Below are positions 31,781 through 38,723 of a DNA stretch of 38,723 nucleotides, piece by piece. Below the pieces are notes generated by a model that was not told where the DNA came from, made no database searches, and saw only the letters and a list, made by a program, of their open reading frames with translations. Source of the DNA: Ignavibacteriota bacterium (GTDB taxonomy: Bacteria; Bacteroidota; Ignavibacteria; UBA10030); contig PLMS01000031.1 of NCBI GenBank assembly GCA_003142575.1, positions 56,213-94,935 on the forward strand, read 5' to 3'. The position numbers were made by a program, and so were the translations under genes. Each line of letters begins with the position of its first letter. The first letter of the stretch is position 1.

Positions 31781-32626
31781 ATGTCAAGATGGAAATTTAG
31801 AATGTATGTAAAAGCGACGGCTTTTTCATTTTCATTGCTCCAGACAGTGGTCATTTCGGGGTGTTCCTCGACAAAAGAATTGAACAGCGAATCGTTAAGC
31901 GGGACATATGTTGTCGACGGCCTTGCCGATAAATGGAACGGAAAGAAAATGCTGGATCTAAAAGACTCGGGATTATTGGTCGGCATTCAAAACGACGCGA
32001 GCAATGTTTATGTCTGCCTCATGTCCACCGATAGAACGACAGAACGGCGGATGACTGCAGCGGGAATGATTGTTTGGATCGAACCTGAACATGGGAAGAA
32101 ATTTGGAATTCATTACCCTCTCCCAATGGGCAGGTCTTCAGTTGCCGAAGGGGGCGGCTCTTCCGGTTATCGTACCGAGATGGAGATATTGGGACCTGAA
32201 AAAGATGCGATAACCCAGAGCTCAATACTGACATCCGAAAGCGATTACGGTATTGCTGCTGCATTCCGCGATTCGTCCGGGCTTGCTGTTCTTGAATTGA
32301 AAATTCCGCGCAAAGCAAAACAAGAACCCTATGGAGCCAGCACCGACAACACTTTGAGTATGAATATCGAATCGGGGAAGATCGAAATGCCTTCCGGCGG
32401 AAAACGTCAAGGTGAAAGTATGGGCGGCGGGGGAAGACGAAGGCACGGCGGCAGCACGCCGAACAGTGAAACGCCGCCGACAGGTGGCAGTATGCCGGGG
32501 AACGAAGGGACGCACGGCGGCGGTTACTCTGGCGGTGGAGGAGGAAATTCCGGAGGACACAGCGGCGAAGGAAGAACTTCATCCGAGCCAATTTCTCTGA
32601 GTCTTCGTGTCCATCTTGCGCAGTAG
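31781..32626 (+). CDS. Lipoprotein with CBM9/DOMON-like N-terminal domain and Gly-rich C-terminal region
   Basis: Lipobox-like VISGCSS; VDGLADKWNG...LVGIQNDASNVYVCLMSTDRTTERRM...IVWIEPEHGKKFGIHYPL; GGGGRRRHGG...GGGYSGGGGGNSGGHSG. Confidence 0.75.
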   Translation: MSRWKFRMYVKATAFSFSLLQTVVISGCSSTKELNSESLSGTYVVDGLADKWNGKKMLDLKDSGLLVGIQNDASNVYVCLMSTDRTTERRMTAAGMIVWIEPEHGKKFGIHYPLPMGRSSVAEGGGSSGYRTEMEILGPEKDAITQSSILTSESDYGIAAAFRDSSGLAVLELKIPRKAKQEPYGASTDNTLSMNIESGKIEMPSGGKRQGESMGGGGRRRHGGSTPNSETPPTGGSMPGNEGTHGGGYSGGGGGNSGGHSGEGRTSSEPISLSLRVHLAQ

Positions 32627-32681: not shown

Positions 32682-35513
32682 ATGAAGAAGAGTGTTGCGA
32701 TATTTCTTTTCTTCCTTATTCCGGCGACGCAGGCACAAAACATCTCAGTGCATGGAATTATTCAGGACTCAAAAAAGATACCGCTCTTTGCTGTAGATAT
32801 TCGCGCTATCAACCTTCAGGATACTACAAAAACCTTTTTTGCCATAACCGAACAGAGTGGATATTTCTTTTTCTTGCTGGCCGAGTCACATCAATATCGT
32901 CTGGAGGCAACGTACATCGGCTATCAAAAAATCGTGAAAACAATTTCTGTCGATAAACACTCTATCGACGTGGGTACGTTGACCATGAAGGAAATTCCCA
33001 TCACTGTGAGAGAAGTCGTCGTCGAAGGCAATGTTCCGGCTGCTGTGCAGAATGGTGACACAACAGAATTTATCGCACGTGCTTTCAAAACCAATCCTGA
33101 CGCGGTTGTAGAAGACCTTATAACGAAGATGCCGGGCATTACAGTGAGTAGTTCAGGTACCGTGAGTGTCGGAGGCGAGACGGTACAACGTGTTCTCGTA
33201 GACGGTAAACCTTTCTTTGGCGACGATCCCACCATGGCATTACGAAATTTACCCGCTGAAGTCGTTGAGAAAATTCAGGTTTTCGATCAAATGAGTGATC
33301 AGGCACAGTTTACAGGATTCGATGATGGTCAATCCGTGAAAGCAATGAATGTCATTACCCGCTCTGCAAATGCACATTCAGAATTTGGAAAATTCTCCGC
33401 CGGATACGGAGATGATGATGGCCGTTATATAGTCGGCGCGGCGCTCAATAAATTTGACGGCGATTCCAGGCTTTCTCTTGTTGGATTAACGAACAATGTG
33501 AACCAACAAAACTTTACTGCGCAGGATGTTCTCGGCACCGGACCAGGTTCGAATACATCGCAGAGGCTTCCTGGAGGACGGCGATCTTCATCGACGGGCG
33601 GCGGCGGGGGACAGGGTGGACGTTCCCCGGGCAGTCAGTTCTCTTTCGGTGGAGGCGGCGGGAGCGCCAATAGCTTTTCCGCCGCACAAGCACAAGGAAT
33701 CAATACAACAAATATGATCGGCGGAAATTATATCGACAGTCTCTCTTCTCAAGTATTTGCGCAGGGGAGTTATTTCTTCAATCAGGTAAACAATGTGAAT
33801 GATCAGACAACGAACAGGCAATATTATGATGCAGGAAGTTCCGGAAGTCTTTATGATCAGCAGACAGATGCCGACAGCAAGAATTATAACCACCGGGCGA
33901 ACGCGCGCATTGTATATACCATGGACTCTTCGAATTCCATCATTGTCACACCGCAGCTTCTTTTTCAACAAAATCAAATATCCAACGTCTTGGATGCGAC
34001 AAGTTCTCTTGCAACGAACGTCCCTCTCAGCGAATCCCAGACCAACAATCAGACAGATGCGTCCGGACACAATCTTACGGGACATATTACTTTACGCCAC
34101 AAATTTGAACTTCCCGGAAGAACACTGTCCTTAGATTTTTCTCTATCGCATAATCAAAAATTGACAACAACACATTTTGATGCCATGACACAGCAAACGG
34201 GGGATTCAACTGCCGCCGATACTTCGAACGACCAAGCACATTCGACAACGCTCGGGTACAGCATTTCTCCAACAATCACCTACACAGAGCCGATAACCTT
34301 CAATAGTCAATTGCAACTGACATACAACGCCTCGTATTCAAGAAATACCGCAGATATAAGAACATATAATTTCAATGCACTGCGGCAACAATATTCGGAT
34401 TTCGATACGCTGCTCTCCAATGTGTATGAAAATGAATATATCACGCAGAGTGCAGGCATGGGTTATCGAATTCGGGGAGATGGACTGAATGCGATGGCTG
34501 GATTCTCCGTCCAATCTGCAGAATTGAAAAACGATCAAACATTTCCATTTACAGGAAACATTTCAAAATCATTTATCGATTACCTTCCCAATGCACTTCT
34601 TAGCCTTGCGCTGAGTGCGCATGAAAATTTGCGTGTGATGTACCGCGCGTCTACACGGCCGCCGAACATTACACAATTACAAAATGTTATCAACAATTCA
34701 AACCCGTTGCTGCTCACATCCGGTAATCCTGATTTGCAGGAATCGTATACTAATTCTCTTAATGTTCGGTATTCGATTACGACTCCCCAAAAAGCCAGAA
34801 GTATGTTCCTCATGCTCTCTGCAACATTTACGAACGAGTACATCGGCAACGCGACAACTCTTGCGACGCGTGACACCGTGCTTTCTGATGGAACAAAATT
34901 AGCACAGGGCTCTCAGTTAACTATTCCCGTCAATCTCAACGGATATGCAAACGTTCGTTCATTCTTTACCTACGGTTTTCCAGTAAATTTTCTCAGCAGT
35001 ATGTTGAACTTGAGTACGGGGTTCACGTATACACGCACACCGGCTGAAATAAATTCTCTTTTAGATATGACAAACACATATGCCATCACTCAGGGATTCA
35101 CGCTTGGAAGCAACATTAGTCCTGAAGTCGATTTCACTCTTGCATACTCAGGCAGCTACAATATCAGCCGCACGAAGCTGCAGCCGGATCAAAACAGCAA
35201 TTATTATTCACATACGGCGAGCTTCAAGTTCAATTGGATTTTTTGGAATGGGATCGTATTCAGAAACGAACTGAACAGCACGGTCACGAGCGGCCTTTCC
35301 AGCGGATACGACCAGAATATTCTCTTGTGGAATATGAGTTTTGGAAAGAAATTTCTTTCGAACCAGCGCGGAGAATTGAAATTAGGCGTGTCCGATCTGC
35401 TCGGTCAAAATAAAAGCATCACCCGCAACATTACCGATACCTACACAGAAGATGTAAGGAATACTGCTTTGACACGGTATGTCATGCTTACATTTACATA
35501 CACGTTAAGATAA
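32682..35513 (+). CDS. Outer membrane beta-barrel family protein (TonB-receptor-like, carboxypeptidase-regulatory-like N-terminus)
   Basis: ISVHGIIQDSKKIPLFAVDIRAINLQDT; VVEDLITKMPGITVSSSGTVSVGGETVQRVLVDGKPFFGDDPTMALRNLPAEVVEKIQVFDQ; Gly-rich loop; barrel C-terminus VMLTFTYTLR. Confidence 0.9.
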   Translation: MKKSVAIFLFFLIPATQAQNISVHGIIQDSKKIPLFAVDIRAINLQDTTKTFFAITEQSGYFFFLLAESHQYRLEATYIGYQKIVKTISVDKHSIDVGTLTMKEIPITVREVVVEGNVPAAVQNGDTTEFIARAFKTNPDAVVEDLITKMPGITVSSSGTVSVGGETVQRVLVDGKPFFGDDPTMALRNLPAEVVEKIQVFDQMSDQAQFTGFDDGQSVKAMNVITRSANAHSEFGKFSAGYGDDDGRYIVGAALNKFDGDSRLSLVGLTNNVNQQNFTAQDVLGTGPGSNTSQRLPGGRRSSSTGGGGGQGGRSPGSQFSFGGGGGSANSFSAAQAQGINTTNMIGGNYIDSLSSQVFAQGSYFFNQVNNVNDQTTNRQYYDAGSSGSLYDQQTDADSKNYNHRANARIVYTMDSSNSIIVTPQLLFQQNQISNVLDATSSLATNVPLSESQTNNQTDASGHNLTGHITLRHKFELPGRTLSLDFSLSHNQKLTTTHFDAMTQQTGDSTAADTSNDQAHSTTLGYSISPTITYTEPITFNSQLQLTYNASYSRNTADIRTYNFNALRQQYSDFDTLLSNVYENEYITQSAGMGYRIRGDGLNAMAGFSVQSAELKNDQTFPFTGNISKSFIDYLPNALLSLALSAHENLRVMYRASTRPPNITQLQNVINNSNPLLLTSGNPDLQESYTNSLNVRYSITTPQKARSMFLMLSATFTNEYIGNATTLATRDTVLSDGTKLAQGSQLTIPVNLNGYANVRSFFTYGFPVNFLSSMLNLSTGFTYTRTPAEINSLLDMTNTYAITQGFTLGSNISPEVDFTLAYSGSYNISRTKLQPDQNSNYYSHTASFKFNWIFWNGIVFRNELNSTVTSGLSSGYDQNILLWNMSFGKKFLSNQRGELKLGVSDLLGQNKSITRNITDTYTEDVRNTALTRYVMLTFTYTLR

Positions 35514-35786: not shown

Positions 35787-36161
35787 ATGATCATAAATCG
35801 ATTTCCTTGGGCGATACTATTGTCCTCAGTTCTCACTCTGCACTGTTCATCAACAAAACCTCTTTCAGAAGCGGAAAAAGCCAAATTGGACCCACCGTTG
35901 CTGCATTTGCTTACCGGTAAACCTATACAAGAAAACCGACTTGATATTTTAACACGGTCGGATGGAACAAAAGAATATGCAGTCATTGTTCAATCAGAAC
36001 ACCCAGAAGCTATTCGCGCACTAGGAATCACCGTAAGCAGTGTTTTTGGAGATGTCATTGTGGTTCACGTCACTCTTGAAGAGTTAAAAAATATCGTATC
36101 ATTACCTACAGTTCAGGCTGTACGAACCGGATCAAGAAGAACTATCCAGCAGCATCATTAA
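35787..36161 (+). CDS. Small lipoprotein resembling a stand-alone subtilase propeptide
   Basis: Lipobox-like VLTLHCSS; LSEAEKAKLDPPLLHLLTGK...RSDGTKEYAVIVQSEHPEAIRALGITVSSVFGDVIVVHVTLEELKNIVSLPTVQAVRTG aligns along its length with the N-terminus of the downstream S8 protein. Confidence 0.8.
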   Translation: MIINRFPWAILLSSVLTLHCSSTKPLSEAEKAKLDPPLLHLLTGKPIQENRLDILTRSDGTKEYAVIVQSEHPEAIRALGITVSSVFGDVIVVHVTLEELKNIVSLPTVQAVRTGSRRTIQQHH

Positions 36162-36171
36162 AAAGGCTCCT

Positions 36172-38723
36172 ATGCTCACTTTGACACGACACACCAGAAC
36201 ATTCATCCTCCTGTTGATTGTTGTTTATGCTGCCTTCGGTACAGATCTCACGGAAAAGCAAAGATCAAAACTGCATCCATTGTTTCGATCATTGATAACA
36301 AAATCGTCGCAGCCATTGTTAAAGACTTCAAGCAGGTCACATCGCATCGCATCAACAGTTTCCAGCGATGGCACTGTTCGTTATGGTGCCATTGTCTACA
36401 CCCGCAATGTTGAAGAGATTCGCTCAATGGGAATACATGTCAATTCTGTTCTTCCGGAATTTGTCACTGCACAGCTCACTCCATCGGATATGGTAAGGCT
36501 CGCTGATCTTGAAAGTGTGAAGTTCCTTGATCCCGGCAAAGTGCATCATCCACTGCTCGATGTTAGTGTTCCCGAAACCGGTGCAGCACTTTTGCATTCA
36601 GGTTTTATCAACAACACTCCCTATAAAGGAGCTGGTGCGATTGTCTTGATCTACGATACCGGCATTGACTGGAAACATTTCGATTTCAGAAAATCGGATA
36701 CGACAAAGTCACGCATACTTTTTATTTGGGATCAAACTCTCACTGCGGGTGTTGACGGATCCGCACCTTCTGGTTTCTCCTACGGTGTTGAGTACACACA
36801 AGCTCAAATCGAAAACGAACTCAAGGGCAATCCGCCAGGTGTTGTGCATGAAAAAGATATTATTGGACATGGAACGCATGTGGCAAGCACCGCCGCTGGA
36901 AATGGTTTTTCATTCAATAATAAATATATCGGTATGGCACCGGAAGCAGATATCATCATCGTGAAAGGCGGAGATGGTACTTTCTCATCAACCGGAGAGA
37001 TCGATGGCTTGACGTATGCACAAAATAAGGCAACGGCATTGAAAGAACCCATTGTCGTCAATATGAGTCTCGGAGGACAAGAAGGCTCGCACGATGGAAC
37101 AAACGACGATGAAGTTGCCGTAACCAAATTTGTTCAAACTCCTGGACGCGCAGTATGTATTGCGGCTGGCAACGACGGATCGGACATGATACATGCCAAC
37201 GGAACTGTGAGCAGTGGATCACCAAGTGTAATCAAAGTAAATGTGCCACAGGGGTATACACCAAATACTGGAACAGATAATGCTTTTTTCATTCTCGATA
37301 TCTGGCTGCCCAACTCAAATGCAGTAAACATGACTATTACATCACCAACGAAGAGTATATATTCTACTCCTACAGATTCGGAATTAGATTCCCTGAAACG
37401 TCCAGAAGGCACGATAGATACATGGAACTACATTGAACAACAAAACCAGCATCGTCACATACAGGTATGGATCCACGATGCAGCTTTCCCAGTGCCTCAA
37501 TCTGGACCATGGATCATTACACTGAGCACAACAGGCACATCGACTACATACGACGCCTGGCTCGATAGCGAACTGGGCGACTTATCTGCAACCATTACTG
37601 GCGGCAATAATAATAAAACAGTTGCGATGCCTGGCACAGCAGATGGTGCAATTACAGTTGGTGCTTATGTAACAAAATGGTTCTGGACGGATTACACAGG
37701 CAGCAATTGGACATACGATAATGCTTCTGATCGAACGGCAAATATTGCATCGTTCAGCAGTATCGGACCGACAGCGGATGGCAGGAATAAACCGGATATC
37801 GCAGCACCCGGCCAGGGAATTGTTGCTGCATTCTCCAGCACTGATATTGATGAATCGACATCAGACATAATTATTAGCAATAAATATCTCCTTATGCAGG
37901 GCACGAGCATGGCAACTCCCCATGTAACGGGAGGCGTAGCATTGCTGCTCAGTGCAAAACCATCATTGACCATTGCGCAAATAAAAAATTACTTACTCTC
38001 GACAGCTCGAACTGATAATTTTACTACTTCTTCCGTCTGGAATGCAACATGGGGTAATGGCAAGATGGATATCTACAAAGCCATGGCAAGTGCAGTCGGT
38101 GCATCGGGAACAAATCGTACAATTCTATCCTATTACAGTGGAACAGCACCAAATTATACGGCAATACCCAGCCCAAATCAGAAGGTTGCTATGCGATTCA
38201 CTCCAACAACAGCTGGCAAACTTGCGAGTGTTGCTGTAAATATAAATAGTGGAGCAAATGCAATCATAGGAACTGGAAATCTGAAAGTTACAGCGATGCA
38301 GAGCGTTGCAGGAAGTCTCGATAGTATCCCCGGCGCACAACAGATAGGTAACAGCGTTCTCGTTCCATTCAATTCATTGAGTTCCGGAGTTGACAATGTG
38401 ATCGATTTTTCTTCGGCAGCAGTATCGGTTACGACCGGAATAGATTTTCAAATTGTTCTCGAACTTACCAAGGTCGGCGATACTCTTCAGCTCTCATTGG
38501 ACGACGGAACACTCAATATCAATCGCACTTCATCATATCGAACAGGTGGAACCGGTGTATTGGGATGGTACAATAGAGCCGATCCTAATTATGGATCTGG
38601 CAAACAACCGGATTACTATAATCTTCTTATAACAGCGGATATCGCAGTACCGGTAACGGATGTCGAACGCATTACTAGTGCTTTGCCAACTTCGTTTATG
38701 CTTAAGCAGAACTATCCCAATCC
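36172..38723 (+). CDS. Subtilisin-like S8 serine peptidase with propeptide and start of a T9SS tail; truncated by window edge
   Basis: Open frame from ATG 36172 to the end, absent from the ORF track because no stop is present. Triad motifs VLIYDTGID, IIGHGTHVAS, MQGTSMATPHV; C-terminal SFMLKQNYPN. Confidence 0.94.
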   Translation, partial: MLTLTRHTRTFILLLIVVYAAFGTDLTEKQRSKLHPLFRSLITKSSQPLLKTSSRSHRIASTVSSDGTVRYGAIVYTRNVEEIRSMGIHVNSVLPEFVTAQLTPSDMVRLADLESVKFLDPGKVHHPLLDVSVPETGAALLHSGFINNTPYKGAGAIVLIYDTGIDWKHFDFRKSDTTKSRILFIWDQTLTAGVDGSAPSGFSYGVEYTQAQIENELKGNPPGVVHEKDIIGHGTHVASTAAGNGFSFNNKYIGMAPEADIIIVKGGDGTFSSTGEIDGLTYAQNKATALKEPIVVNMSLGGQEGSHDGTNDDEVAVTKFVQTPGRAVCIAAGNDGSDMIHANGTVSSGSPSVIKVNVPQGYTPNTGTDNAFFILDIWLPNSNAVNMTITSPTKSIYSTPTDSELDSLKRPEGTIDTWNYIEQQNQHRHIQVWIHDAAFPVPQSGPWIITLSTTGTSTTYDAWLDSELGDLSATITGGNNNKTVAMPGTADGAITVGAYVTKWFWTDYTGSNWTYDNASDRTANIASFSSIGPTADGRNKPDIAAPGQGIVAAFSSTDIDESTSDIIISNKYLLMQGTSMATPHVTGGVALLLSAKPSLTIAQIKNYLLSTARTDNFTTSSVWNATWGNGKMDIYKAMASAVGASGTNRTILSYYSGTAPNYTAIPSPNQKVAMRFTPTTAGKLASVAVNINSGANAIIGTGNLKVTAMQSVAGSLDSIPGAQQIGNSVLVPFNSLSSGVDNVIDFSSAAVSVTTGIDFQIVLELTKVGDTLQLSLDDGTLNINRTSSYRTGGTGVLGWYNRADPNYGSGKQPDYYNLLITADIAVPVTDVERITSALPTSFMLKQNYPN

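Follow-up and report, generated by a model that had tools for sequence, protein, structure and literature searches.

Several kinds of small protease inhibitor resemble the pair of genes described here. Stand-alone I9-type inhibitors include POIA1, the yeast peptidase B inhibitor, plant SPI-1, TgMIC5 and Plasmodium SUB1-ProM, and stand-alone propeptide mimics inhibit subtilases (PMC6993865); propeptides themselves can be tight and selective inhibitors (PMC10580911). The potempins of Tannerella forsythia are small lipoproteins whose genes directly precede those of the KLIKK proteases exported by the type IX secretion system (T9SS), the enzymes that they are stated to inhibit (PMC7296668). Spi, the inhibitor of streptococcal SpeB, is a propeptide analogue encoded beside the protease (PMC2873492), with the cytoplasm as its presumed site of action (PMC3462683). 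The Bfi and Bti proteins of Bacteroides are small, several of them have lipoprotein signals, and they are encoded beside proteases, with protection of the cell as their proposed role (PMC2873492, PMC3462683).

The locus that was compared with these systems lies at the end of the window, that is, the whole stretch of 38,723 nucleotides that was analysed, and consists of a gene for a small protein (P0001) followed by a gene for an S8 subtilase (P0002). Its features are as follows.

35787..36161, + strand: stand-alone propeptide-like putative lipoprotein of 124 aa, P0001 (ORF; homology to the neighbour's propeptide; conserved family)
35787..35846, + strand: lipoprotein-type signal peptide, ending at the presumed lipid-acceptor Cys20, codon 35844-35846 (family alignment)
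35946..36128, + strand: predicted propeptide/I9-like core domain, P0001 residues 54-114 (AlphaFold2 model; Foldseek matches to subtilase propeptides)
36129..36158, + strand: C-terminal tail, P0001 residues 115-124 (relatives' ends near the propeptide/mature junction)
36172..38723, + strand: S8 subtilase P0002, propeptide included, open at the contig end (PF00082, E 4.7e-46)
36244..36558, + strand: propeptide of the protease, P0002 residues about 25-129 (alignment with P0001; predicted elements)
36619..38091, + strand: S8 catalytic domain of P0002 (alignment A3)
36655-36657, 36868-36870 and 37906-37908, + strand: catalytic triad of P0002, Asp162, His233 and Ser579, respectively (alignment A3)
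38680..38723, + strand: first part of the C-terminal T9SS sorting domain (SFMLKQNYPN...), which runs off the contig (sequence; TIGR04183/PF18962 in relatives)

An ORF check of the window placed the start of P0001 at the ATG at 35787 and its stop at the TAA at 36159-36161, and the P0002 ORF begins with the ATG at 36172 and has no stop codon before the end of the window, which is also the end of the contig. The initial annotation had reported both ORFs and a gap of 10 nt between them; they were found at these positions, the sequences it quoted agree with the window, and the gap is as claimed.

As in the case of the I9-type inhibitors, P0001 is a small, separate gene product that is not part of any protease and that has, according to its model, the fold of a subtilase propeptide, and SUB1-ProM is likewise encoded beside subtilase genes (PMC6993865). 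However, SUB1-ProM was recognised through fold prediction, whereas P0001 shows clear sequence homology to the propeptide of its partner; moreover, the listed I9-type inhibitors are eukaryotic and none is described as lipid-anchored (PMC6993865), whereas P0001 is bacterial and has a lipoprotein signal. The potempin arrangement is also seen here, in that the gene for a small lipoprotein directly precedes a T9SS protease gene, with the order reversed at a few loci. Potempins, which are set apart from P0001 by description rather than by sequence, differ in fold and are not known to derive from the propeptide of their protease. The pair had been proposed to be an undescribed protease-immunity module, and this can be upheld for the propeptide-derived version only, because potempins already exemplify a lipoprotein inhibitor before a T9SS protease and the general idea is known from them (PMC7296668). 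Like Spi, P0001 is a propeptide analogue encoded next to its protease; however, the partner of Spi is a C10 cysteine protease and that of P0001 is an S8 protease, and a lipid anchor is not described for Spi (PMC3462683), whereas the P0001 family has a lipoprotein signal. Bfi and Bti are staphostatin-like with C10 cysteine protease partners, whereas P0001 is propeptide-like with an S8 partner. In clostridial CspB/CspBA the protease itself supplies the prodomain, whereas here a second, separate copy has a lipoprotein signal; the structures matched by the P0001 model include the CspB prodomain. Propeptides are not mentioned in a paper on polymorphic toxin immunity (PMC3482391). The components are thus known singly, from I9-type inhibitors, potempins, Spi and Bfi/Bti; their combination, as a lipoprotein that derives from a propeptide and is paired with a T9SS subtilase or as a bacterial I9 lipoprotein inhibitor, was not found described in the open-access papers searched.

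To relate P0001 to the N-terminal region of the next gene, pairwise and profile alignments were performed. BLASTP aligned P0001 residues 26-115 with protease residues 26-122 (29% identity over 97 aa, E 7e-11), the local alignment score was 110 against a best of 58 among 2000 shuffles (z about 15), and profile-profile alignment of the P0001 family with the propeptide by hhalign gave a probability of 99.4% (E 1.2e-21, 102 columns). A tblastn search of P0001 against its own genome found two places only, the P0001 gene and the propeptide of the neighbour (E 8e-7). No significant sequence match to P0001 was found in Pfam, NCBIfam or the PDB. Because Pfam Inhibitor_I9 (PF05922) was not matched by P0001, and was absent among the families matching 30 members at E <= 1, the small protein was not filed in the Pfam I9 family; CspB_prodomain was matched weakly by three of the 30 small proteins (best E 0.049).

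AlphaFold2, run on P0001 with 30 relatives, returned a model with a mean pLDDT of 85.9 (about 97 in the core) and the elements E54-56, E62-70, H73-77, E83-87, E90-95, H97-104 and E109-114, and the elements predicted for the protease's own propeptide follow in the same order. Foldseek listed 50 structures, and all matches with a probability of at least 0.89 were subtilases or prodomain chains, among them PAM protease, CspB, pro-subtilisin E, ProteinT, PCSK9 and Tk-subtilisin; no match to the P0001 model had E <= 0.001, though probabilities reached 1.00. Homing endonucleases were also listed, at probabilities at or below 0.33, and were treated as noise. The model suggests that P0001 takes a subtilisin-propeptide (I9-like) fold, with strands and helices ordered as in a subtilase propeptide. 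Both the homology of P0001 to its neighbour and the propeptide or I9 fold on which the initial annotation had staked its proposal are therefore borne out, the former by the BLASTP and hhalign E values and the far lower shuffle scores and the latter by the AlphaFold2 model and its Foldseek matches.

The catalytic residues Asp162, His233 and Ser579 of P0002 are invariant across 20 aligned sequences (alignment A3), and the end point of its propeptide is presumed from alignment with subtilisin. The nearest solved structures to the catalytic domain are the clostridial CspB/CspBA germination proteases (4i0w and others). In full-length relatives of the protease, a type A sorting domain of the T9SS scores above the curated cut-offs (TIGR04183/PF18962), and the type IX marker SprA_N is present in the genome. 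The partner proteases have ordinary signal peptides without any conserved Cys. In the small-protein family, the column of the signal Cys is invariant in all 30 aligned members (alignment A2), and a signal-type Cys was found in 47 of the 49 members checked, the two lacking it being L033, which is truncated at a contig edge, and L124; for L039 the automatic assignment chose a later Cys, and the alignment reveals its signal Cys. A canonical lipobox (PS51257-like rule) is present in 36/49 members. Judged by its family, P0001 is likely, rather than proven, to be lipidated, since its own lipobox, T-L-H-C, departs from the canonical pattern at position -1.

Conservation of the pair was examined in family f1 and beyond. 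The small ORF occurs in 11 f1 genomes, with the cognate protease directly downstream in each (in G002 the small ORF is frameshifted). A protease search at E <= 1e-60 returned 13 f1 genomes, namely these 11 together with G009, whose protease shares 41% identity and beside which the small ORF was not found, and G023, represented by a contig-edge piece of the protease without its N-terminus; G024, with a 63-aa piece only, was left out of the counts. The small ORF was present in 11 of the 12 f1 genomes having the N-terminal part of the orthologous protease (one frameshifted), and an intact small ORF in 0 of the 20 other f1 genomes (Fisher p 9e-8, uncorrected for phylogeny). Profile searches across the class and the phylum gave further stand-alone hits, and 51 hits picked by sequence only were inspected; three weak or contig-edge hits (G108, G457, G654) lie outside this set. 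An S8 gene adjoins 49 of the 51, usually within 60 nt or overlapping; this count includes L090, the contig of which carries only the propeptide part of the S8 gene. An estimate of the adjacency expected at random assumes 12 S8 genes per genome and serves as a rough guide. The small gene is upstream of the S8 gene in the large majority of loci. The two exceptions are L134, which resembles a propeptide fragment and lacks a lipobox, and L135:4469-4906 (G572), a propeptide-like lipoprotein for which about 5 kb of surrounding sequence showed no S8 gene. The conserved neighbourhood with S8 genes that had been anticipated is thus present, and by sequence comparison the small lipoprotein and its subtilase form a pair that is an old, conserved module.

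Several loci depart from the common layout. The order is reversed, with the small gene downstream of the S8 gene, at four f14 loci (L096, L097, L100, L121) and at L127. G004 encodes a further subtilase with a homologous propeptide (L028:8821-11823) immediately after the paired one, and this second enzyme is not accompanied by its own small ORF. The small gene is frameshifted beside an intact protease at L029:5812-6190 (G002) and at L123:5043-5342 (G603, reversed strand), which may reflect either decay or assembly error. An apparent fusion of small protein and protease in G030/G031 (open frame 1091) proved to be separate ORFs 27 nt apart, and a Verrucomicrobia hit from the genome contig scan (L087) was discarded, its match being limited to the signal and linker region inside an unrelated ORF.

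The small gene is under purifying selection, with dN/dS of 0.15-0.32 in several pairs. In a tree of 65 columns, the stand-alone and propeptide labels need 2 changes only, against a mean of 21 when shuffled, and a single clade of stand-alone forms was not rejected (p-AU 0.33, on these 65 columns only). Within the limits of so few columns, these results point to an old split with both genes inherited together, and the stand-alone proteins and the propeptides look like separate ancient lineages. Regarding the proposed origin from a duplicated propeptide, the relation to the propeptide stands; a recent duplication is not supported by the tree.

The C-termini of the stand-alone proteins were placed relative to the propeptide/mature junction, the column of the expected first mature residue, Asp of DVSVPE. 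The exact bond, which we take from comparison with subtilisin, may be off by one. Of 30 stand-alone proteins, 27 end -2 to +3 residues from this column, and many close with the motif ..SKNYP.. (compare ..STNYP.. in propeptides). We predict that the tail of P0001 occupies the non-prime substrate groove of the subtilase. The acidic helix-capping residue of propeptides corresponds to Glu69 in subtilisin BPN' (PMC6993865); here most propeptides of the proteases themselves carry Asp, and many stand-alone proteins carry Gln, Arg or Thr. Because the acidic residue is often not kept, binding by the small protein may be weaker or different, and the departure speaks against full propeptide mimicry.

Altogether, we consider it likely that P0001 is an inhibitor of the neighbouring protease and represents a subtilase propeptide that stands alone and carries a lipid anchor. 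We infer its lipidation, binding, inhibition, membrane side and role as follows. Both proteins would cross the inner membrane via Sec, and the small protein would be lipidated at its Cys and kept on the periplasmic side of a membrane. Its beta-sheet would dock onto the catalytic domain, and its C-terminus would fill the substrate groove like a cleavage product, leaving little or nothing to cut, so that protease matured prematurely would be held inactive in the periplasm. The protease would then exit by the type IX system, with its own propeptide still serving as cis folding aid and zymogen. Such product-like, membrane-tethered inhibition of the cognate T9SS-exported subtilase is probably a safety catch until export. 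Since the protease keeps its own propeptide, a second, anchored copy is best explained as an inhibitor guarding the periplasm; however, the inhibitor is not strictly needed, because G009 has no partner and the small gene of G002 is frameshifted beside an intact protease. More tentatively, and with somewhat less than an even chance, the phylum-wide, unnamed family of propeptide-derived lipoproteins could be a general guard, each member binding its own T9SS-exported subtilase in the periplasm and handing the latent enzyme to the secretion channel. If so, a secreted protease would owe its latency both to its own propeptide and to a partner tethered to the membrane. The module bears on how bacteria survive broad proteases in their own periplasm before type IX export; this small module, found in many lineages of the phylum, implies a clear-cut interaction between two proteins, and it would yield a rule for genome mining, namely a lipidated propeptide copy adjoining an exported protease.

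It is also conceivable, but unlikely, that the lipoprotein is a trans-acting chaperone that aids folding or export competence of the subtilase at the membrane, with inhibition secondary. Subtilase propeptides are folding aids as well as inhibitors (PMC10580911), and co-inheritance and purifying selection fit this equally well; however, every protease has its own cis propeptide, so that a second chaperone is not obviously needed, and in G009 and G002 the protease occurs with no intact partner. Somewhat less probable still is a lipoprotein flipped to the surface, where it would shield surface proteins from the cell's own or a sibling's protease or hold a latent complex. The lipoprotein-type signal in nearly all members would suit such a location, as would the cell protection proposed for the small Bacteroides lipoproteins beside C10 proteases (PMC2873492). 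However, most members lack acidic stretches just after the Cys (e.g. CSSTKPLS, CSSTTELT) that could direct them there. Bacteroidota surface-export signals are acidic stretches immediately behind the Cys, a rule that may not extend to this lineage. Lastly, a functionless, decayed remnant of a duplicated protease gene is very improbable: apart from the frameshifted copies in two relatives (G002, G603), the dN/dS values, which largely refute a pseudogene, the conserved length and C-terminus, and the spread over many families all argue against it. The periplasmic inhibitor remains the preferred reading of the pair.

Promoter and terminator scans around the pair gave scores no better than shuffles. 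Upstream of the pair lie an outer-membrane beta-barrel protein (32682-35513, PF14905) and a Gly-rich, lipoprotein-like ORF of 281 aa without a Pfam match (31781-32626). Positions 1-27700 of the window, where ORFs were judged by reading without family search, appear to hold a sugar-use cluster with apparent galactose-pathway enzymes, sugar symporters, glycoside hydrolases, a LacI-type regulator and two proteins with T9SS-type tails.
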